From Pseudomonadota bacterium (GTDB lineage: Bacteria > Pseudomonadota > Gammaproteobacteria > Acidiferrobacterales > UBA6901), in the NCBI GenBank assembly GCA_021819085.1, contig JAKASJ010000024.1, positions 1 to 44,633 of the forward strand: 44,633 bases of DNA, given 5' to 3'. The notes beneath the pieces are model-generated. The model did no database searches. It saw only the letters and a list, made by a program, of their open reading frames with translations, and was not told where the DNA came from. Position 1 is the first letter of the stretch, and every line of letters starts with the position of its first letter. The position numbers were made by a program, and so were the translations under genes. Positions 32,335 through 44,633 of the stretch are shown one piece after another.

Positions 32335-33024
32335 ATGGTCACGCTTTCAAATGAGCACGAATCGGATACGCGGCAACGGCTTATCGAGGCTGCGGCCGGC
32401 ATGTTTGTCGAACAGGGTTTCAACGCGGCCAAGGTGCGCGACATTGTGGCGCATGCCGGAGCCAACATTGCCGCAGTGAATTATCATTTCGGAAGCAAGG
32501 AAGGGCTTTACGCGGCCGTAATCCAGTACCATTCCGCGCAGGCAATCGAAGTACTGTCTCAGCAAGCCGGCGACGATGGCGGACGCACGCCTGCGGCACG
32601 GTTGCATGATTACGTCCGTACTTTTCTCAAGCGGCTGCTCACGCAGACTCCGCAATTCACCATGAGCAAGCTCGTCGCACGGGAGATGGTCGAGCCCACA
32701 GCGGCATTCGGTCTGATCATCGAAAAGTTTGTCTGGCCCCAGTACCACGCGCTCCAGGCCATTGTCCGCACGATTGCGGGCGAGAAGCTGTCTGAGGAGC
32801 TCGTGCGCCGCTGCTGCCTGAGCATCGTCGGACAATGCCTTTACTACCAGTTTGCGCGTCAGGTCGTGGCGTGTCTGGATCCCGAATTCGGGTACGGTCC
32901 GGCAGATGTCGAGCGCCTGGCAGAGCATGTGGTTGCGTTTTCTCTGGGCGGCATACGCCAGTCGGTGCGAACTCACGCAGGCGAAGCGCAGAAATCGCAT
33001 TCCGGACACGTTAACGACAGATGA
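32335..33024 (+). CDS. TetR/AcrR-family repressor, CecR-like
   Basis: A 229-residue regulator. The N-terminal helix-turn-helix is TRQRLIEAAAGMFVEQGFNAAKVRDIVAHAGANIAAVNYHFGSKEGLYAAVI (about 12-63). The C-terminal ligand domain resembles the CecR (YbiH) group, whose members control drug exporters of the HlyD type. The start at 32335 is chosen because the upstream frame is not TetR-like and the promoter lies just before it; there is no clear ribosome site and the leader is very short. Its stop overlaps the ATG of the nodT-type gene (ATGA), so regulator and pump share a transcript. Confidence 0.9.
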   Translation: MVTLSNEHESDTRQRLIEAAAGMFVEQGFNAAKVRDIVAHAGANIAAVNYHFGSKEGLYAAVIQYHSAQAIEVLSQQAGDDGGRTPAARLHDYVRTFLKRLLTQTPQFTMSKLVAREMVEPTAAFGLIIEKFVWPQYHALQAIVRTIAGEKLSEELVRRCCLSIVGQCLYYQFARQVVACLDPEFGYGPADVERLAEHVVAFSLGGIRQSVRTHAGEAQKSHSGHVNDR

Positions 33025-34514
33025 GACGCTCCAGAGGCTTAGGCTACCGGCTAGCCGGCGTCGCGCTTGTCGCGGCGGTGTCGGCCGTGGCCGGCTGCGC
33101 ATTCGTGCCGTCCCGCAATGTCCAGGCACTGCCTTCGGCAGCATCCTATCCGATGACCAAAAGCGTGACACAGGCGCTGGCATCGCCCGAATTCCGCCGC
33201 GGCCGCTGGCCAGCGGATGACTGGTGGACCGGCTTCGGCGATGCACAACTCGATTCCCTCATCGCCGCAGCGCTCGCGAGGAATCCGGATCTGGATATTG
33301 CCCGGTCACGGCTGATCTTGGCCCGGCAGGCAGTCGCCGTGGCGCGTTCCGGCCTGCTACCGGACCTCGGAGCAAGCGCGTCGGTGACGCGCGAAAAGTT
33401 CAGCGCGAACGGCCTGTTTCCGCCGCCGTTTGCAGGCGCCACCTATAACCAGGGTCAGATTTCCCTCGATTTCGGATATCACCTGGATTTGTGGGGCAGG
33501 GCGCGCGACGAGTTCCGGGCGCGCCTGGGTGAGGCCAGAGCTGCAGCGGCCCAAGCCGCCGAGGCACGGCTCATCATTACGACCGCAGTGGCAAGCGCCT
33601 ACTTCCAGCTGCAGGGAGACCTGGCACGCCTGCAGGTCACCGGTGAGGGGCTTGCACAGCGCAAGGCCTTCGAGCGGTTGGTCAGCCTGCGTGCTGCAAA
33701 CGGGCTGGAAACGCAGCTTGCCGTCAAGCAGGCACAGGCGGATGTCGCGTCGGTCGAAGCGAATATCCTCAGGCTGCAGAATGCCGTGGCCGGCGACAAG
33801 CATGCACTTGCCGCGCTGATTGGGGAGGGCCCGGATGCGGCGAGCAGGATCCAAGCCCCCACCAGCTATTTCGACAGGCCTTTTCCGGTTCCTGCTGGGC
33901 TGTCAGTGGATCTGCTCGCGCGCCGTCCGGACATCATGGTCCGGCGCTGGCAGGTCGAGGCGGCGGCGCAGGAGATCGGTGCAGCGCGCGCCGGATTTTA
34001 TCCGAACATAAGTCTCACCGCCCAGATCGGCAAGCAGAGTGTCGAACTGAGCCAGTTGTTCGATCCGGGCAGTGATTTCGCGCTCGTGGGTCCAGCGATA
34101 CATCTTCCCATTTTTGAAGGCGGGCGCCTGCGTGCGGCGCTCAACGCGCGTTACGCGCAATACGACATCGCGGTCGACCGGTATCGTCGTGCGCTGATCG
34201 GCGCCGCACGCGACGTCGCTGATCGTATGGCAACAGTAGAGTCGGTCACGCAGGAGCTCGCACGGCAGACCGAGGCGCGCCAGGCCAGTGAGGATGCATA
34301 CCATCTCGCGATGCTGCGCTACAGATCCGGACTGACCGATTACCTGACGGTTCTCCTGGTTCAGCAGGACGTACTTCGGCAGCGCGACATCGAGGCGGGG
34401 CTGCGCGCGCAGCGTCTGCAGGCGGTGCTGGCCCTGATCAAGGCATTGGGCGGGGGTTACGGACAAGTCCGCAGGAGTCCCGCATCGTCCGTAAGAATCA
34501 GGAGACAGTCATGA
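33021..34514 (+). CDS. NodT/OprM-family outer-membrane efflux lipoprotein
   Basis: TolC-like outer-membrane channel, 497 residues. Lipoprotein signal with Cys26 in VSAVAGCAFVP. Two OEP repeats follow: DDWWTGFGDAQLDSLIAAALARNPDLDIARSRL near 67-98, YHLDLWGRARDEF, then the second repeat ARRPDIMVRRWQVEAAAQEIGAARAGFYPNISL and LPIFEGGRLRAAL. It would form the outer exit of a tripartite pump with the EmrA- and EmrB-type genes that follow. It overlaps tetR upstream and emrA downstream by four bases each (ATGA). Confidence 0.93.
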   Translation: MRRSRGLGYRLAGVALVAAVSAVAGCAFVPSRNVQALPSAASYPMTKSVTQALASPEFRRGRWPADDWWTGFGDAQLDSLIAAALARNPDLDIARSRLILARQAVAVARSGLLPDLGASASVTREKFSANGLFPPPFAGATYNQGQISLDFGYHLDLWGRARDEFRARLGEARAAAAQAAEARLIITTAVASAYFQLQGDLARLQVTGEGLAQRKAFERLVSLRAANGLETQLAVKQAQADVASVEANILRLQNAVAGDKHALAALIGEGPDAASRIQAPTSYFDRPFPVPAGLSVDLLARRPDIMVRRWQVEAAAQEIGAARAGFYPNISLTAQIGKQSVELSQLFDPGSDFALVGPAIHLPIFEGGRLRAALNARYAQYDIAVDRYRRALIGAARDVADRMATVESVTQELARQTEARQASEDAYHLAMLRYRSGLTDYLTVLLVQQDVLRQRDIEAGLRAQRLQAVLALIKALGGGYGQVRRSPASSVRIRRQS

Positions 34515-35719
34515 GTGACCGCATCGACGACAGCCCGTCGCAGACTGTTGAGACGGGCAGAAACAGCCGGCGCAAGCAGATGCTCTGGCGGCTCGCCACG
34601 GTGTTCGTGCTGCTGGCAGCGGGCTTTGGCGCGTACTGGTGGTTCATAGGCCGGTTTGCCGACACCACTGACGATGCCTATGTCGGCGGCAACGTGGTCG
34701 GGGTAAGCCCTCAGGTCGCTGGCACGGTGGTGGCCATCGATGCGGATACGACCGACCTGGTGCGGCGGGGCCAGCCCCTCGTGGAGCTGGATGACACCGA
34801 TACCCGCATTGCTTTGGATCGGGCGGAGGCCGTTCTGGCTCAAACCGTGCGTCAGGTACGGCAGATGTTCGACAATGTCCGGCGGCTGAGGGCAACGGTC
34901 AGTCTGCGCGAAGTCGAACTTGCCCGCAGCAAGGAGGATCTGGCCCGGCGTGAGACTCTCATCGCATCCCATGCGGTGTCTCGCGAGGATTTCGAGCATG
35001 CAAGGATCGCCTACGAAGGTGCGCAGGCGGCGCTGCGCGTCGCGCAGCATGAACTGCAGTCTGCCCTGGCTCTGGTCAAGGGCTCCACGGTCGAACATCA
35101 CCCGCTCGTCGAGGAGGCCAAGGCCCGCCTGCGCGAAGCCTATGTCGCCTGGGCACGTCACCTGGTGCCGGCGCCCGTCACCGGGTATGTGGCGAAACGC
35201 AGTGCACAGTTGGGGGAGCGTGTCGCACCGGGCATGCTCCTGATGGCAGTTGTGCCCCTCAATGAGATCTGGGTGGACGCCAACTTCAAGGAAGACCAGC
35301 TTTCGGACATTCGCCTGGGGCAGCCTGCAACAATGACCTCAGATCTGTACGGCAGTTCGGTGGTCTACCATGGCAAGGTCCTGGGAATCGGTGCCGGAAC
35401 CGGCAGCTCGTTCGAGCTTCTGCCGCCGCAGAACGCCAGCGGCAACTGGATCAAGATTGTCCAGCGTGTGCCGGTGCGGGTCAGCCTCGATCCGCAGGAA
35501 TTGGTGAAGCATCCACTGCGCATCGGACTGTCCATGAAGGTATCGATCGACATCCATAATCGTTCCGGCGAAACCCTGGCGCGCAGGCCTACCGGAAAGG
35601 TTGTTTACAGTACACCTGTCTACACCGGTAGTACCGCGGGGGCTGAGAGACTGATACTCCGTATCATCAGGGCCAACGACCCTGGTGCTGGGCACATCGC
35701 AGACGGTTTGCGGAGATAG
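34511..35719 (+). CDS. emrA: EmrA/HlyD-family membrane fusion protein
   Basis: Periplasmic adaptor of a tripartite exporter, 402 residues. One N-terminal membrane anchor (about 26-46, LATVFVLLAAGFGAYWWF), then the lipoyl half TDDAYVGGNVVGVSPQVAGTV, a coiled-coil hairpin (about 85-190), the second lipoyl half VPAPVTGYVAKRSAQLGERV, and a beta-barrel domain with ANFKEDQLSDIRLGQPA and KIVQRVPVRVSLDP, a stretch characteristic of EmrA. It overlaps the channel gene by four bases and precedes emrB by three. Confidence 0.93.
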   Translation: MSDRIDDSPSQTVETGRNSRRKQMLWRLATVFVLLAAGFGAYWWFIGRFADTTDDAYVGGNVVGVSPQVAGTVVAIDADTTDLVRRGQPLVELDDTDTRIALDRAEAVLAQTVRQVRQMFDNVRRLRATVSLREVELARSKEDLARRETLIASHAVSREDFEHARIAYEGAQAALRVAQHELQSALALVKGSTVEHHPLVEEAKARLREAYVAWARHLVPAPVTGYVAKRSAQLGERVAPGMLLMAVVPLNEIWVDANFKEDQLSDIRLGQPATMTSDLYGSSVVYHGKVLGIGAGTGSSFELLPPQNASGNWIKIVQRVPVRVSLDPQELVKHPLRIGLSMKVSIDIHNRSGETLARRPTGKVVYSTPVYTGSTAGAERLILRIIRANDPGAGHIADGLRR

Positions 35720-35722
35720 ACC

Positions 35723-37267
35723 ATGCCGGCGCAAATGCAGCCACCGCCGCCGCAGGGGGGTGTTCTGGCGCTTATGACCCTGGCGCTGTCTCTGGGCACG
35801 TTCATGCAGGTGCTGGATACTTCCATTGCCAACGTCTCGATCCCCGCCATCGCCGGCGATCTCGGATCCAGTCCGGACCAGGGAGCCTGGGTCATCACCT
35901 CGTTTGCCGTAAGCAATGCGATCATGTTGCCGCTTACCGGCTGGCTGGCGAGACGGTTCGGGGAGGTGAAGCTGTTTGTAGTGGCCACAACGCTTTTTAC
36001 CATTGCCTCGTGGGCCTGCGGATTGGCCCCCAATCTGCCCACGCTCATCGCGTTCCGTGTCTGTCAGGGCGCTGTGGCGGGTCCCATGATTCCGCTTTCT
36101 CAGAGTCTGCTGCTTGCAAATTATCCGGATCACAAAAAGGGTATGGCGCTGGCGCTTTGGTCCATGACTGTGGTCATTGCGCCGATCTTCGGCCCGATAA
36201 TGGGGGGATGGATAACCGACAATATCAGCTGGCCGTGGATTTTCTACATCAACATTCCAGTCGGGATGTTTTCGGCCTTTGTGACCTGGCAGATCCTGCG
36301 CAAGCGGGAAACGCCCATCGTCAGGCGTCCAATCGATGCCGTTGGCCTAGTTCTGCTGGCCACCGGTGTAGGATCGCTGCAGATTCTGCTCGACAAGGGC
36401 AACGAGCTGGGGTGGTTCGGATCGTCTTTTATCGTCACCCTGGCAGCGATTTCCACCGTCGCGCTCAGCTTCTTCATTGTCTGGGAACTGACCGAGGAAC
36501 ATCCGGTGGTGGATTTGCACCTCTTTCTGAACCGCAACTTTACCGTCGGAGTCATTGCAGTCAGCCTCGGCTATATGACCTTTTTTGGCAACGTGGTCAT
36601 ATTTCCGCTGTGGCTGCAGACTCAGATGAACTATACCGCGACCTGGGCCGGACTGGCGGCGGCTCCCATAGGGTTACTGTCGGTCGTTCTCTCGCCGGTT
36701 GTCGGACGCATTCTCCATCGTGTGGACCTGCGGATCCTGACGACCTTCAGTTTTCTGGTTTTCGCCGGAGTCTCGTTCTGGACGAGCCATTTCAACACTA
36801 ACGTGAGCTACTATGAGCTGTTCATGCCTCGTTTCATACAGGGAATCGGCATGGCGTTCTTTTTCATTCCGCTCGCCAGCATGAGCCTCTCCGGGTTGCG
36901 CGCCGACCAGTTTGCCAGTGCCGCGGGTCTGTCCAACTTTCTGCGCATCCTTGCAGGCAGTTTCGGCACCTCGCTCAGCATCACCCTGTGGGAGCGCCGC
37001 AGCATTCTGCACTATAGCCAGCTTATCGAGCATATTTCGGCGTTCAGCCCGATCAGTGTGCGGGCGCTGCAACACCTGAAGCAGCTTGGTTTGGCAGCTG
37101 GCGGGGCGCTTGATCTTTTGAGCGGATTGGTCACCCAGCAGGCGGTGATGATCGCGACCGACGAGCTGTTCTGGCTCTCGGGCGTGATTTTTCTCGGGCT
37201 TATCGTGGTTGTATGGTTTGCGCGTCCGCCATTTGCGGCGGCGGGTGGTTCAGGCGGAGAGCATTGA
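35723..37267 (+). CDS. emrB: EmrB-type MFS drug exporter (DHA2, 14 spans)
   Basis: Proton-driven exporter of the drug:H+ antiporter-2 group, 514 residues and about 14 membrane segments. Family marks are TFMQVLDTSIANVSIPAI in the first helix (motif D1-like), WVITSFAVSNAIMLPLTGWLARRFGE (motif A), RVCQGAVAGPMIPLSQSLLL (motif B) and APIFGPIMGGWI (motif C, antiporters), with WIFYINIPVG after. Together with NodT and EmrA it forms a complete pump under the upstream TetR. Substrates of such pumps are often hydrophobic toxins or uncouplers; none can be named here. Confidence 0.94.
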   Translation: MPAQMQPPPPQGGVLALMTLALSLGTFMQVLDTSIANVSIPAIAGDLGSSPDQGAWVITSFAVSNAIMLPLTGWLARRFGEVKLFVVATTLFTIASWACGLAPNLPTLIAFRVCQGAVAGPMIPLSQSLLLANYPDHKKGMALALWSMTVVIAPIFGPIMGGWITDNISWPWIFYINIPVGMFSAFVTWQILRKRETPIVRRPIDAVGLVLLATGVGSLQILLDKGNELGWFGSSFIVTLAAISTVALSFFIVWELTEEHPVVDLHLFLNRNFTVGVIAVSLGYMTFFGNVVIFPLWLQTQMNYTATWAGLAAAPIGLLSVVLSPVVGRILHRVDLRILTTFSFLVFAGVSFWTSHFNTNVSYYELFMPRFIQGIGMAFFFIPLASMSLSGLRADQFASAAGLSNFLRILAGSFGTSLSITLWERRSILHYSQLIEHISAFSPISVRALQHLKQLGLAAGGALDLLSGLVTQQAVMIATDELFWLSGVIFLGLIVVVWFARPPFAAAGGSGGEH

Positions 37268-37351
37268 CCGGGCCAGCCTGGACGATACGCGAAACGTAAT
37301 GGCCTGGGAGCGGTCTATAGGAAAACGATATGCGGGATGGGGTCAAGACCG

Positions 37352-37810
37352 ATGATTGAGGCGATAAGACGGTTTCTGGAGGAAAGCCTGCCGGCCGATG
37401 GCCGCAGGACGAAGCACGATGATTTGCAGCTGGCCGCCGCCGCATTGCTTATCGAGGTCATGTCAGCCGATTATCGCGAGGAAGAATCCGAACGCGCGGC
37501 GATTGTGCGCGCAGTCGGCACGTTATTCGGACTCACTCCGCAGGAAGGGACGCGGCTGGTGGATCGGGCCCAGGAGGAGCTGCGTCATGCCACCGACGAC
37601 TACGAGTTCACGTCACAAATCAACCGGGGCTTCTCGGCGCAACAGAAGGAGGCGCTCATGGAGGCACTGTGGCAGGTTGCCTATGCCGACGGTGACATCG
37701 ATATGTACGAACGCCACTATCTGGGCAAGCTCGCGGAGCTTCTCTATATTCCCCGGTCGAGCTTCATCTGTGCCAAGCTGCGTGTCTGCGGCGCGTCTGA
37801 CGGGCGCTAG
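37352..37810 (+). CDS. TerB-like (tellurite-resistance/DUF533-type) helical protein
   Basis: A 152-residue soluble protein with the TerB pattern: an N-terminal helix pair (DDLQLAAAALLIEVMSADYREEESERAAIV), and a second acidic segment EALWQVAYADGDIDMYERHYLGKLAELLYIP near the C-terminus. The paired DxxxxxxE acidic clusters of this family may bind metal. No ter operon partners are nearby, so it is a stand-alone cytosolic member of unknown role. An ATG 15 bases upstream (37337) is an alternative start. It follows the emr operon by 84 bases. Confidence 0.82.
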   Translation: MIEAIRRFLEESLPADGRRTKHDDLQLAAAALLIEVMSADYREEESERAAIVRAVGTLFGLTPQEGTRLVDRAQEELRHATDDYEFTSQINRGFSAQQKEALMEALWQVAYADGDIDMYERHYLGKLAELLYIPRSSFICAKLRVCGASDGR

Positions 37811-37816: not shown

Positions 37817-38424
37817 GCGGCCGGGCTTGGCTGCCTCTTCCGGCGATGCCAGTCGCTCTATCGGTTGCCGGTGCGAACTTCAGTCGCAGGGCTGGACCCC
37901 GTCGGAATTTCGGGCCCGCGACTCCGGAAGCACGCATCGTTTACAGGCGACGCGCCTTTCCGGATGGCGGTCGGACCCCGGGGAGTGACCTCATCCGGGC
38001 ACCGGATGTCCGGTGGACCGCGCTGGACGCGTCAGGGACGTCTCGAGGCATGCAGTTCCTTGTCCGAGTCGGACAAACAGATTCAGCGTAGCGCTGTGCA
38101 CGGAAAACCCGGCACTGCCAGCGTGAAGGCACGATCGTGAACGGGTGGCGTTTCAGAGCCAACCGCGGATCTGCCGGCTTGACCGCATTTTGCTTGCCGG
38201 GCTACCGTATGCAACCGTTGATTGAATGCCGTCCGGGATTCTCTGGGTGCGGGGCAGCGCATCTCGATCACAAACGGCCGTTTTCCGGACCTGAGGACAG
38301 AACCGTAGTCTCACAGGCCAATGTCAGGGATTTTTCGCGCTGGTGTTGAATGTTGCCGCATATCGCTTGGTTTGACGAATCCAGATCCGGGCCCGCAGCC
38401 TCCGCAAACCCGGTGCCGGCGAAT
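37811..38424. other. Gap upstream of dacB with a perfect interrupted palindrome
   Basis: About 600 bases without a gene I can support. TTGTCCGA-G-TCGGACAA (38060-38076) is a flawless 8+1+8 inverted repeat, of the size and shape of a dimeric regulator site. It is about 365 bases before the chosen dacB start. No promoter is obvious close to it. Confidence 0.4.
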
Positions 38425-39885
38425 ATGCCAGTGCGCGTTAATGCGGCGACGCGGGTCGCACGCCTGTTCACGCTGCTCGTTCTCGCTGTTTCCCCGGTCG
38501 TTGGGGCGAAAAGCCTGCCACCCCCGCATCTGCCCGGACCGGTAGCAGCGGCGCTGCGGCGCTACGACATGTCTGCGCGTGGCCTCAGCATCGTAGTCCG
38601 GCCAGTCGATGGTTCCAGGGCGCTGCTGGATTTCAATGCGGAGGTACCACGCAGCCCCGCGTCTACGCTCAAGCTTCTGACCACCCTCGTTTCGCTCGAG
38701 AAACTGGGTCCGGCATACACCTGGAAGACCGCGGCCTATGGAGGCGGGCCTGTGCGTAGCGGGCGACTGGAAGGCAATCTGTACCTAAAGGGCTATGGCA
38801 ACCCCGATCTGGTCATCGAGGATTTCTGGCGTTTTCTGCATGGCCTGCGCGAGTCCGGGATCCGGAGCATCGGTGGAGACCTGGTGCTGGATCGCAGCTA
38901 CTTCGCGCCGGCGACCTCGACGCCGGGGGAATTCGATGGCCATCCCTTGCGTCCGTACAACGTTCTGCCCAGTGCATTGCTGGTGAATTTCCAGGCAGTC
39001 AGGATCCGGTTTTTTCCTCAGCCCCAGCGCCACCGGGTCCGCATCGTCGCTGATCCGCTGCCTGACAGGTTGCGTATCGTCAATCACGTGCGCCTCGTTT
39101 CTGGCCCCTGTTTGGGCGGTGCACGCGGTGTTGCCATGCGCGAGGTGCGCTCGCGCTACGGCAAGCAGGTGATCTTCAGCGGCGATTATGCGGCTGCGTG
39201 CGGGCAGGGCGACCGCTACCGGGTGCTGTCGGATCCCCGTGATTACATAGGCGGCATTTTTCGCGAACTGTGGACGGAAATGGGCGGGCACTTTTCGGGG
39301 CACGTGCGCTTTGGGCGCGTACCACCGTCGGCGCGTCTCCTGTACACGGGACAGTCGCCGCCCCTGGCGGAGGTGATCCGCTCCATCAACAAGTACAGCA
39401 ACAACGTGATGGCGCGCCAGCTTTTGCTTACCCTCGGAGCGAAGTTCGTGCAGACGCCCGGAACCATCGAAGGTGGAGACCAGGTAGTGCGCGCGTGGCT
39501 TTCCGAAAACGGCATGTCATTTCCGGAATTGATCGTAGGCAACGGCTCCGGACTGTCGCGTCGCGCACGGATCTCGGCGGCCCACCTTGCGGACGTGCTG
39601 GTTGCCGCCTACAACGGTCCGGATATGCCCGAGTTCTTTGCCTCGCTTCCCATCCTGTCTGTGGACGGAACCATGAAGGACAGGCTCGACGGCAGCAAGC
39701 TGGCAGGACGTGCGCACCTCAAGACCGGTAGCCTCGATGGCGTGCGCGGCACAGCCGGAATCATGCTCGATTCCAAGGGTCGGCGCATGGTGGTGGTTTG
39801 CCTGCAGAATGACCCGCGCGCCGATACAGCGTCCGGAGAGGCAGTGCAGAATGCGCTGCTCGAATGGATCTATCATCGCCTATGA
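38425..39885 (+). CDS. dacB: D-alanyl-D-alanine carboxypeptidase/endopeptidase (PBP4)
   Basis: Class-C low-molecular-mass penicillin-binding protein that trims and opens peptidoglycan crosslinks. From the ATG at 38425 the product is 486 residues with a signal peptide (RLFTLLVLAVSPVVGA, cleavage near 28). The three active-site motifs are intact: SxxK at Ser80-Lys83 (SPASTLK), SNN at 325-327 (NKYSNNVMARQ), and KTG at 433-435 (LKTGSLDGVRG). The large insert between the first two motifs is typical of PBP4. An ATG at 38350 would place 25 residues before the signal peptide and is less likely. Confidence 0.92.
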   Translation: MPVRVNAATRVARLFTLLVLAVSPVVGAKSLPPPHLPGPVAAALRRYDMSARGLSIVVRPVDGSRALLDFNAEVPRSPASTLKLLTTLVSLEKLGPAYTWKTAAYGGGPVRSGRLEGNLYLKGYGNPDLVIEDFWRFLHGLRESGIRSIGGDLVLDRSYFAPATSTPGEFDGHPLRPYNVLPSALLVNFQAVRIRFFPQPQRHRVRIVADPLPDRLRIVNHVRLVSGPCLGGARGVAMREVRSRYGKQVIFSGDYAAACGQGDRYRVLSDPRDYIGGIFRELWTEMGGHFSGHVRFGRVPPSARLLYTGQSPPLAEVIRSINKYSNNVMARQLLLTLGAKFVQTPGTIEGGDQVVRAWLSENGMSFPELIVGNGSGLSRRARISAAHLADVLVAAYNGPDMPEFFASLPILSVDGTMKDRLDGSKLAGRAHLKTGSLDGVRGTAGIMLDSKGRRMVVVCLQNDPRADTASGEAVQNALLEWIYHRL

Positions 39886-39928: not shown

Positions 39929-40306
39929 ATGATGCGCCAGGTACTTGAGGAATCCCGTGTGCATCCCGCGATTCGGGAGAAGATTTCCTCGAATCACCGG
40001 GACCTTGTCGACGCGGTGGCGACGGCGGCGGCGCGCCATCCGGTGGTTATCGTGGGTATGGCACGAAACCCGTTTTGCCGCCGTGCCTGCCGGATGCTCG
40101 ACGAGCGCGGGGTGGCATACGTGTATCTCGAGTATGGAGGCTACTTCAGTCACTGGCGCCGGCGCAATGCCCTGAAGATGTGGACCGGATGGCCAACCTT
40201 TCCGATGGTGTTCGTGCGCGGCCAGCTGGTCGGCGGAGCACAGGACCTCTCTGCGCTGCTCGGTAGCGGCGAGTTCGAGAAGCTGCTCGCAGGCACAGTA
40301 GCGTGA
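39929..40306 (+). CDS. Glutaredoxin-like protein with Asn in place of the first catalytic Cys
   Basis: A thioredoxin-fold protein of 125 residues. The glutaredoxin core is clear: VVIVGMARNPFCRRACRMLDERG (active-site region 39-61), TGWPTFPMVFVRGQLVGGAQDL with the cis-proline (Pro92) and the GG glutathione-binding turn. The usual CPFC or CGFS is NPFC, so the N-terminal nucleophile (position 47) is Asn while Cys50 and a further Cys54 remain. An extra N-terminal helix (about 1-35) precedes the core, as in Grx4-type proteins. Classical dithiol or monothiol chemistry is therefore doubtful; an Fe-S or glutathione-binding role is possible. The start could be GTG at 39923. It lies 43 bases after dacB. 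Confidence 0.82.
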   Translation: MMRQVLEESRVHPAIREKISSNHRDLVDAVATAAARHPVVIVGMARNPFCRRACRMLDERGVAYVYLEYGGYFSHWRRRNALKMWTGWPTFPMVFVRGQLVGGAQDLSALLGSGEFEKLLAGTVA

Positions 40307-42689: not shown

Positions 42690-44633
42690 TTATATCCCCG
42701 AATGGTGCCCGAACAGTCGCTGGAACCAGGTCTTCAGCACCCTGATAGGCGAGTGGGAGACGCAAGGCGCCGATTGAACCGGCGCCGACCCACGGATGAA
42801 TGGGATCCGGACTGCTCCCCGGCAGCCCGAATCGGCTCGCAGTCCCGTTGCCGGATCAACCCACGCCATGTCAACGTCAGTCGGACGCGGCGGATTCAGT
42901 GGCTCCGGGTCAATCTGGGCCATGGTTTTGCCCCACACGGTCATTGCGCCGGTGGCACCGGTTAAGCCCGTCGGCTTGTCGTCGTCGCGGCCGACCCATA
43001 CCACGGCCACGTGATCGCCGGTGAAGCCGGCGAACCAGCTGTCGCGCAGATCCTGGGTGGTGCCGGTCTTGCCGGCCGCATGCAGATCCGGCGAAATGTA
43101 CTGTGCGAGTCCAGCAGCCGTGCCGTGGTTCACGACGCCCTGAAGGGCATAGGTGAGAAGGTAAACCGGGCCGGGTGGAACAACCTGGGTCACTTTCAGG
43201 GAGAAACGCTGCAGCGGGTGTCCACCGGCATCCAGCACGTCGCGAACCGCGCGCAGCGGCACGCGAAATCCACCGTTCGCCAAGGTCTGGTACATCTGGG
43301 CCACTTCGATCGGCGTCAGGCTGTCGGCTCCGAGAAGACTCGCCTGATACTCCGGCAGGGCGTGCCTGATTCCGAGCTCGTGTATGGTATTCATGACCGC
43401 CGGAAGTCCCAGACTGAGCCCCAGGCGCACGGTGGCGACATTGTAGGAATTGGCGAGTGCCGTAGGTAATGGCACCAGGCCGTGAAAGCGGCGGTCGTAA
43501 TTCCTGGGAGCCCAGATTACCCCTCGGCTCTCCTTGACGGTAAGCGGGGTGTCCTCCAGCAGCGTGGCAAGCGTGTAGCTGCCCGGCTGCTCGAGTGCTG
43601 TGAGGTAGATCGCAGGCTTGATGAGGGATCCTACCGGACGAAAGGCATCCAACGCGCGATCGAATCCCTCGAATTGGGGATCACGTCCTCCCACGATCGC
43701 CTGCACCTCGCCGGTCTGTGAATTGGTGACGACTACCGCACCCTCCAGTGAATCAGCGGGAAGGTGTTGCTCAGTTTCGAGTCGCGCAAGGCGTGTGGTG
43801 AGTGCATGCTCGGCCGCAACCTCTACCTCGGGATCGAGAGTCGTGATGACCCGCAGACCTGCCGAGTGCAGCTCGTTTGCGGGGTAATCGCGCAGCAACT
43901 GGCGGCGCACCAGGTCGAGAAATGCCGGATACGGTGACGCGGACAGAGGTGGCGCCACCGCAATGCCAAGAGGTTCGCGCGTGGCCAGGGCATACTGTGC
44001 TGGAGTAATGTGCCGTTGCTGCAGAAGTTCTTTCAGCACTAGGTTGCGGCGTGCAAGAGCATGGCGAGGGTGCAGACGCGGATCGTAATACGATGGCCCC
44101 CGCACGAGGGCGACAAGCAGCGCCGACTGGGCTAGGTCGATCTGGGACAGCGGCTCATCGAAGTAGAACTTGCTGGCCTCGCCGAAGCCACGTATCGCGT
44201 GATTGCCCTCCTGGCCGAGGTAAACTTCGTTCAGATAGGCTTCCAGGATCTGCTGTTTGGTGTAGTGCAGATTCAGCAGCAGCGCCATGATTACTTCGCT
44301 GAATTTGCGTGTGAGGGTACGTTGCGGACCGAGGAACAGATTTTTGACCAGCTGCTGGGTCAGGGTACTGCCACCCTGCACGCCGCCACCACGAAGCATG
44401 GTCCACAGCGCACGTGCCATGCCGCGAGGGTCTATGCCGTAATTCGTGTAGAAACTGCGATCCTCGACGGAAATGAGGCCGTTGACCAGGTCCGGCGGCG
44501 CCTCGCTGAGCGTGATGAGCTGCCGGTCCGAGCGGTCGGCAGGATAGATCCTGCCTATCAACACCGGATTCAGGCGGGCCAGGTTCACGGGCGCGCCCGT
44601 GGCTAGGTCCTGGAGTGCCGGCATGGTTCCGTC
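42690..44633 (-). CDS. mrcB: Bifunctional penicillin-binding protein 1b, N-terminus outside the window
   Basis: Class-A PBP that polymerises glycan strands and crosslinks them. The frame is open to the window edge; 647 codons are visible, so the cytosolic, membrane and UB2H parts are missing. Glycosyltransferase domain: SVEDRSFYTNYGIDPRGMARA with the catalytic Glu, GGSTLTQQLVKNLFL, and EAYLNEVYLGQ. Transpeptidase domain: SxxK in RPVGSLIKPAIYL, SYN in ALANSYNVATVRLG and KTGTTQDLRDSWFAGFTG. The order and the short C-terminal tail fit PBP1b (MrcB) better than PBP1a, which carries an OB insert. Confidence 0.93.
   Translation of the reverse strand, partial: DGTMPALQDLATGAPVNLARLNPVLIGRIYPADRSDRQLITLSEAPPDLVNGLISVEDRSFYTNYGIDPRGMARALWTMLRGGGVQGGSTLTQQLVKNLFLGPQRTLTRKFSEVIMALLLNLHYTKQQILEAYLNEVYLGQEGNHAIRGFGEASKFYFDEPLSQIDLAQSALLVALVRGPSYYDPRLHPRHALARRNLVLKELLQQRHITPAQYALATREPLGIAVAPPLSASPYPAFLDLVRRQLLRDYPANELHSAGLRVITTLDPEVEVAAEHALTTRLARLETEQHLPADSLEGAVVVTNSQTGEVQAIVGGRDPQFEGFDRALDAFRPVGSLIKPAIYLTALEQPGSYTLATLLEDTPLTVKESRGVIWAPRNYDRRFHGLVPLPTALANSYNVATVRLGLSLGLPAVMNTIHELGIRHALPEYQASLLGADSLTPIEVAQMYQTLANGGFRVPLRAVRDVLDAGGHPLQRFSLKVTQVVPPGPVYLLTYALQGVVNHGTAAGLAQYISPDLHAAGKTGTTQDLRDSWFAGFTGDHVAVVWVGRDDDKPTGLTGATGAMTVWGKTMAQIDPEPLNPPRPTDVDMAWVDPATGLRADSGCRGAVRIPFIRGSAPVQSAPCVSHSPIRVLKTWFQRLFGHHSGI

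Follow-up and report, generated by a model that had tools for sequence, protein, structure and literature searches.

A bacterial glutaredoxin-fold subfamily with asparagine at the position of the catalytic cysteine

Results

The window analyzed here is a stretch of DNA of 44,633 nucleotides, and the feature under study is an open reading frame on its forward strand (39929..40306) that begins with an ATG at 39929, ends with a stop codon at 40304-40306 and encodes a glutaredoxin-fold protein of 125 aa, which we refer to as Asn-type. Its delineation draws on the ORF call, a match to the Pfam glutaredoxin family, the start shared with orthologues and an AlphaFold2 model. Specifically, Met occupies the first column in 79 of the 81 rows of alignment A1, which consists of the window protein and 80 loci, these being the top-ranking 80 among 474 stretches confirmed in a contig scan. 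Upstream, on the same strand, lies a PBP4-type carboxypeptidase gene whose stop codon is found 43 bases before the start of the Asn-type ORF, and the downstream neighbor is a convergent FAA-hydrolase-type gene. In the wider surroundings, penicillin-binding protein genes flank the Asn-type gene (PBP4 type at 38350-39885, forward strand; PBP1b type at 42690-44624, reverse strand). Positions 33021-37267 hold a tripartite EmrAB-type efflux set, comprising an outer membrane factor, an EmrA-like adaptor and an EmrB-like MFS transporter, which is followed by a TerB-family gene (37337-37810).

With respect to fold, the window protein scores 39.4 bits against Pfam Glutaredoxin (PF00462), above the gathering cut-off of 22.9, and this is its sole Pfam match at a threshold of E 0.001. 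The AlphaFold2 model built on A1 has a mean pLDDT of 92.1 and a pTM of 0.84. Its best Foldseek match is zebrafish Grx2 (3uiw, E 3.4e-7), and VIA-align places it on 3rhb (Z 16.1, rmsd 2.3, 99 aligned) and on human Grx2 with glutathione (2fls; Z 15.6, rmsd 3.0, 100 aligned). The genome to which the window belongs (99.98% complete) contains six PF00462 matches including the Asn-type gene, five of them above the cut-off. An ordinary CGFS protein is among these matches, and other glutaredoxins coexist with the Asn-type gene.

The active-site loop, G43-M44-A-R-N47-P48-F-C50, was located by profile alignment and by counts over 142 aligned rows (40055..40078, forward strand). Within the local sequence G43-M-A-R-N47-P-F-C50-R-R-A-C54, codon 47 is AAC (40067-40069), which encodes Asn where glutaredoxins have the nucleophilic Cys, and in the family profile alignment N47 pairs with the first of the active-site cysteines in human glutaredoxin 2 (SKTSCSYC). 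The initial annotation had proposed just such a replacement within a glutaredoxin fold, and the wider comparison bears this out: residue 47 is Asn in 81/81 rows of A1 and in 142/142 rows of a wider set spanning Pseudomonadota and Myxococcota. Gly43 is likewise found in all 142 rows, Met44 in 141 (Leu in one) and Pro48 in 136. The string G-M-x-x-N-P also recurs in 14/14 further loci from the relatives, class and phylum samples, some of which possibly belong to the same genomes as A1. As to whether the NPFC unit is fixed among orthologues, only the Asn is; position 50 is Pro in 62 rows, Val in 44 and Cys in 36, and is never Ser. Members with NPFV or NPMP are among the Cys-free orthologues.

The way these rows were gathered bears on how the counts are to be read. 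The 142-row set combines A1, the Myxococcota-sample loci and a plasmid protein from Loktanella, all scored together; it represents 138 distinct loci, L135-L138 being repeats of A1 loci, and stands apart from a CGFS protein (L196) and a copy with an interrupted frame (L195). The contig scan behind A1 used peptide patterns, one of which contained the Asn motif, and is to that extent biased towards Asn. The search profile also holds an Asn column, where a change is estimated to cost only a few bits. At E 1e-12 in two samples, no Cys-bearing intermediate was found in the gap that separates the lowest-scoring intact member row (121.9 bits) from two CGFS proteins (L128 and L196, about 50 bits), which were the only non-member matches; one interrupted family copy scored 99.7 bits. 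L195 (G863:C12:4934-10254) is a family copy with two in-frame stops in its match, the match in G904 has one, and the other matches of the Myxococcota-sample search have none.

The loss of the nucleophile of a well-known enzyme might suggest a damaged or non-functional copy, or a sequencing error. No orthologue with Cys at position 47 appears among the 142 rows, however, and independent assemblies agree at this codon; with Asn47 in every row, drawn from two phyla, the window copy is neither a mutant nor a misread. Moreover, both Asn codons are in use in the 81-row set (AAC 61, AAT 20), and comparisons with four relatives gave pairwise dN/dS values (NG86) of 0.10, 0.12, 0.15 and 0.17. We consider the chance that damage or error explains the Asn to be negligible, and the family is, judging from its coding sequences, under purifying selection.

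In terms of the remaining cysteines, Cys54 is found in 13/142 rows, and Cys50 and Cys54 occur together in 4/81 rows of A1. The core (residues 36-120) is free of Cys in 95/142 rows, and 49/81 rows of A1 carry no Cys anywhere in the aligned stretch. The CxxxC pair that had been seen in Cys50/Cys54 is therefore a local feature only. A redox sensor or low-activity oxidoreductase acting through these two residues, which the window protein does possess, is very improbable given their scarcity among the other rows. With the core Cys-free in 95 of 142 rows, neither the redox-sensor role nor the Cys-ligated Fe-S role suggested earlier is tenable for the family as a whole. As its nucleophile is missing, the protein would be unable to work as a normal glutaredoxin. 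From the alignment, the function shared by the family cannot consist in thiol-based chemistry or in a Cys-ligated cluster, and the family probably serves a purpose outside ordinary thiol chemistry.

Positions of the glutathione scaffold were mapped onto the family from the scaffold-site residues of ScGrx7 given in passages of PMC5382279, by way of the human glutaredoxin 2 (GLRX2) profile alignment. In this alignment, M44 pairs with Lys and R79 with a helix Gln, T90-F91-P92 matches TVP, and G102-G103-A-x-D106 matches GGATD. The predicted contact positions are kept: R79 in 142 of 142 rows, T90 in 141, P92 in 142, Gly102 and Gly103 in 142 each, and Asp or Glu at 106 in 129, the acidic residue being absent in 13. 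The G102-G103-A-x-D106 turn (40232..40246, forward strand), assigned from the 142-row counts and the human glutaredoxin 2 alignment, has the class I spacing and would by homology contact the gamma-Glu of glutathione. The earlier statement that the cis-proline and GG turn are kept agrees with the TxP loop and GG turn retained in the window protein. The Lys (or Arg) expected in the active-site loop is absent, its place being taken by Met in 141 rows and Leu in one. Passages of PMC7351949 describe this Lys, rarely Arg, as strictly conserved in all glutaredoxins. Among seven class I-like sequences that are readable at this position, five have Thr (L002, L003, L129, L130 and L133), one has Leu (L132) and one has Lys (L004), and the loss is therefore less telling than that wording, as far as those passages go, would imply.

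A family-specific stretch defined by the 142-row counts is the block G70-x-Y72...W76-R-x-R79-x-x-L-K83-M-W85-T-G-W88-P-T90-F-P92 (40136..40204, forward strand), which takes in the helix 76-86, the WP motif and the TxP loop. G70, Y72, W76, R79, K83, W85 and P92 are present in 142/142 rows each, followed by T90 (141), P89 (140) and W88 (139), so that the WxxR..LKMWTGWPTFP region singled out as distinctive in the initial annotation holds across the family. The Gln of WPTFPQ is found in 27 of the 61 rows added after A1. Three Trp residues of the block, W76, W85 and W88, would be expected close to the groove. Preceding the core is an N-terminal extension of residues 1-35 (R..LDE..HPAIR..; 39929..40033, forward strand), with helices predicted at 13-21 and 24-36 from the AlphaFold2 model and the alignments. 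Arg3 and His12 are found in 81/81 rows of A1; in the wider set, His12 is present in 113/142 rows (10 gaps) and Arg3 in 121/142 (21 gaps). The R..LDE..IHPAIR portion (residues 1-20, 39929-39988) is well kept in A1 and degenerate in divergent Myxococcota-sample members, and the extension may be the mark of a subgroup function.

With regard to distribution, member-level scores (at least 183 bits) were obtained in 6/60 genomes of the relatives sample, five of them from the genus of the window and one from elsewhere in its order. The family was found in 7/369 genomes of the class sample and in 5/398 of the phylum sample; the genome of the window is included in each of these three counts. In a further sample, drawn from the phylum to which G804 belongs and taken to be Myxococcota because that genome contains a Polyangiaceae locus, a profile search found the family in 61/160 genomes, every carrier having a single copy. 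The search gave 62 matches, one of which is a CGFS protein; ten were returned as loci, and DNA was taken for the other 52. The family is thus rare in the class of the window and common in the Myxococcota sample. Records of named strains with a member include those of Noviherbaspirillum humi U15, Aquimonas voraii DSM 16957 and Rubrivivax rivuli KYPY4.

As for mobile elements, two patterns specific to the family recovered no member from viral contigs, no relative being among the 34 matches, and phages yielded one weak match, which was 27.7% identical and covered 77% of the query. Among plasmids, 112 records matched, 3 of them with a query coverage of 80% or more, and at least one of the seven matched records that were examined holds a member, from Loktanella salsilacus, with 47.7% identity and the Asn present. 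Other plasmid loci carry different proteins. L129, L130, L131 and L133 are small grxC-type glutaredoxin genes, adjoined by a DUF427 gene in two of the four; L129, L130 and L133 have Thr at the expected glutaredoxin Lys position, and L131 is unreadable there. On Novosphingobium pLA3, L132:601-939 encodes a CEFC glutaredoxin-like domain towards the C-terminal end of an annotated pyridoxal-phosphate dependent enzyme frame, and the sequence W...RRAL..RTGAPTIP in the helix region of this domain is reminiscent of the Asn family.

Clustering of neighboring ORFs revealed no widely shared partner in 133 loci, the largest cluster comprising 14 loci, all from the A1 scan. This clustering took 133 of 137 loci (L159, L177, L186 and L195, which had no member ORF, were left out) with flanks of 2.5 to 5 kb, and rests on mechanical, noisy ORF calls. 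A cruder first pass had given a maximum of 13/95 loci. The clusters follow lineage: an ABC transporter and a TAP-like hydrolase accompany the gene in one group, NnrU and a P-type ATPase in another, and an FAA hydrolase in the relatives of the window. A cluster of 11 loci, 6 of them from the Myxococcota sample, resembles Ser/Thr protein kinases by eye and occurs in scattered positions.

Glutathione synthesis appears to be within the capacity of carriers. All 26 chosen carrier genomes gave a GSH-synthetase ATP-grasp match, the best one in G094 being partial (83.7 bits). In the Myxococcota sample, at a threshold of E 1e-35 that we chose ourselves, GSH-synthetase was matched in 59/61 carriers and 80/99 non-carriers (Fisher p 0.0033, uncorrected for relatedness and completeness). 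The two carriers lacking a match are G824 and G878, and G943 (E 4.7e-44) and G950 (E 1.4e-39) have weaker matches only. GshB is common in any case, including among non-carriers.

Discussion

Taken together, the aligned rows define a bacterial glutaredoxin-fold subfamily in which the position of the catalytic Cys is Asn in every row examined and the second Cys is optional. Since the family has no conserved protein thiol and has kept the scaffold groove, the most plausible role is one in which glutathione or a glutathione adduct is held non-covalently, and we tentatively favor a thiol-independent binding protein of this kind. Such a protein would carry out no thiol chemistry of its own. Glutathione, glutathione disulfide or an adduct would sit in the retained groove formed by Arg79, Thr90-Phe91-Pro92, Gly102-Gly103 and Asp106, and the amide of Asn47, in the direction that we infer for it, would face the sulfur of the ligand in place of a covalent Cys-SG bond. 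The bound ligand could serve either of two uses. The protein might catalyze glutathione-dependent reactions without a cysteine, much like the Nu-class enzymes YfcG and YghU. Alternatively, it might bind or sense in a glutathione-dependent way and present its conserved Trp/Arg/Lys helix to a partner.

Several observations are in keeping with non-covalent glutathione binding, namely the invariance of Asn47 together with a mostly Cys-free core (95 of 142 rows), the glutaredoxin fold with its scaffold positions, and the low dN/dS (0.10-0.17). The presence of just one family copy per carrier (61 genomes), the other glutaredoxins in the window's genome, the GSH-synthetase of carriers and the precedent for disulfide reduction in the YfcG/YghU group count in the same direction. 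Against it stand the loss of the glutathione-contacting Lys, the absence of Asp/Glu106 in 13 rows and the presence of the WP motif. In addition, G70, Y72, W76 and W85 lie outside the listed glutathione contacts and would fit a partner surface equally well.

This last point leads to the main rival, which we regard as a serious possibility: a pseudo-oxidoreductase adaptor, in which the fold has been reused only as a scaffold for binding protein or nucleic acid, the Trp/Arg/Lys helix is the partner surface, and the groove no longer binds glutathione. That the family has neither the catalytic Cys nor the customary Lys speaks for an adaptor, as do several family-specific invariants (G70, Y72, W76 and W85) outside the listed glutathione contacts. 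A precedent of sorts has been suggested in human SH3BGRL3, a member of a family known from animals. According to passages of PMC8356473, SH3BGRL3 resembles glutaredoxins, has no redox active-site sequence and shows no enzymatic activity. The likeness lies in a glutaredoxin-like protein whose redox active-site sequence is missing; in Pfam, the window protein matches PF00462 alone. An adaptor would, however, have little need of the scaffold positions R79, T90, P92 and the GG turn, which are as conserved as any others, and no widely shared neighboring gene (at most 14 of 133 loci) names a partner for it. Sequence alone does not decide between an adaptor and a glutathione-binding protein, the latter being the reading to which we lean.

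Glutaredoxins are defined by one cysteine, and a lineage that is fixed for Asn while keeping the fold and most of the groove is a natural test of what the groove does without thiol exchange. Fold members that have lost the active-site cysteine are already known, and the Asn-fixed family extends these. We found no description of an Asn-fixed glutaredoxin family in the literature searched, most subscription journals lying outside its coverage. Our results suggest that a plain 'glutaredoxin' annotation, as carried by the Loktanella plasmid member, is misleading for Asn-type genes. As named strains carry the family, the question is directly testable.

In relation to known glutaredoxin classes, the family is, by its aligned segments, a mosaic of a class I-length stretch before the active site and a CGFS-like helix and TxP block. 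Its likeness to class I proteins (Grx3, human Grx2) is seen in the best fold matches (3rhb and 2fls), in the short loop before the active site, where M44-x-x-N47 aligns with K-x-x-C of GLRX2, and in the GG-x-x-D spacing. In contrast to class I, the family lacks the nucleophilic Cys of CxxC/S, possesses a WP motif and has Met for Lys; the window protein reaches 37.8 bits against the NCBIfam Grx3 model, where the cut-off is 90.

The likeness to CGFS glutaredoxins (class II, Grx4/GrxD) consists of the Arg-x-x-Leu-Lys-x-aromatic helix, the WPTxP block and the GEL tail, and the two groups are colinear over R..[LI]K.[WYF]..WPTxP. The WP motif before the TxP loop is a class II trait, described in passages of PMC5382279 for Fe-S-binding monothiol glutaredoxins. 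What separates the family from these proteins is Asn for the Cys of the CGFS motif, a position 50 that is never its Ser, the lack of the five-residue loop extension, the GG-A-x-D spacing of class I and the N-terminal extension; the score against the NCBIfam Grx4 model is 39 bits (cut-off 117.1). An Fe-S cluster carrier like the CGFS proteins, in which glutathione together with Asn or further residues would hold the cluster, would agree with the colinear helix and WP block and is nonetheless quite improbable. The Cys ligand is missing in all 142 rows, and M44-x-x-N47 stands in place of the K-x7-C seen in 28/28 CGFS sequences compared, where the five additional residues form the loop that passages of PMC7351949 name as the key determinant of Fe-S function.

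In a tree of 55 rows, the 33 Asn-type rows (32 of the 81 A1 rows, after an identity filter of 72%, and the Loktanella protein) form one side of a branch (99/95). More deeply, the Asn-type rows, 14 CGFS rows and one other glutaredoxin of the window's own genome face the class I rows. As long branches meet here, the bootstrap is unsettled and the root is a midpoint root, deeper placement is unsafe, and we do not claim descent from CGFS proteins. The plant class III protein ROXY9 offers another comparison, since passages of PMC11724882 describe a glutaredoxin-type protein in which glutathione binding is altered and the standard oxidoreductase activity is absent. Unlike the Asn family, ROXY9 retains its active-site cysteines (CCLC) as well as the Lys, according to the same passages. 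ROXY9 is plant-specific.

The comparison with the Nu-class enzymes serves as a working idea only, and differences in architecture are apparent. The Asn family consists of one 125-residue glutaredoxin domain with PF00462 as its only Pfam match. YfcG and YghU are larger, two-domain transferases in which a thioredoxin-type domain is followed by a C-terminal helical domain. The feature common to both sides would be glutathione chemistry in a thioredoxin-type groove: for disulfide reduction in the YfcG/YghU group, passages of PMC3995644 state that a Thr, and not a Cys, contacts the glutathione thiol. By analogy, Asn47 might stand in for the nucleophile and position or activate the bound glutathione itself. 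A single glutaredoxin domain could then catalyze glutathione-dependent reactions without any cysteine, as the glutaredoxin equivalent of the Nu-class enzymes, and in its use of glutathione it would take a natural middle place between the glutaredoxins and the glutathione transferases. We view this more specific proposal as rather unlikely.
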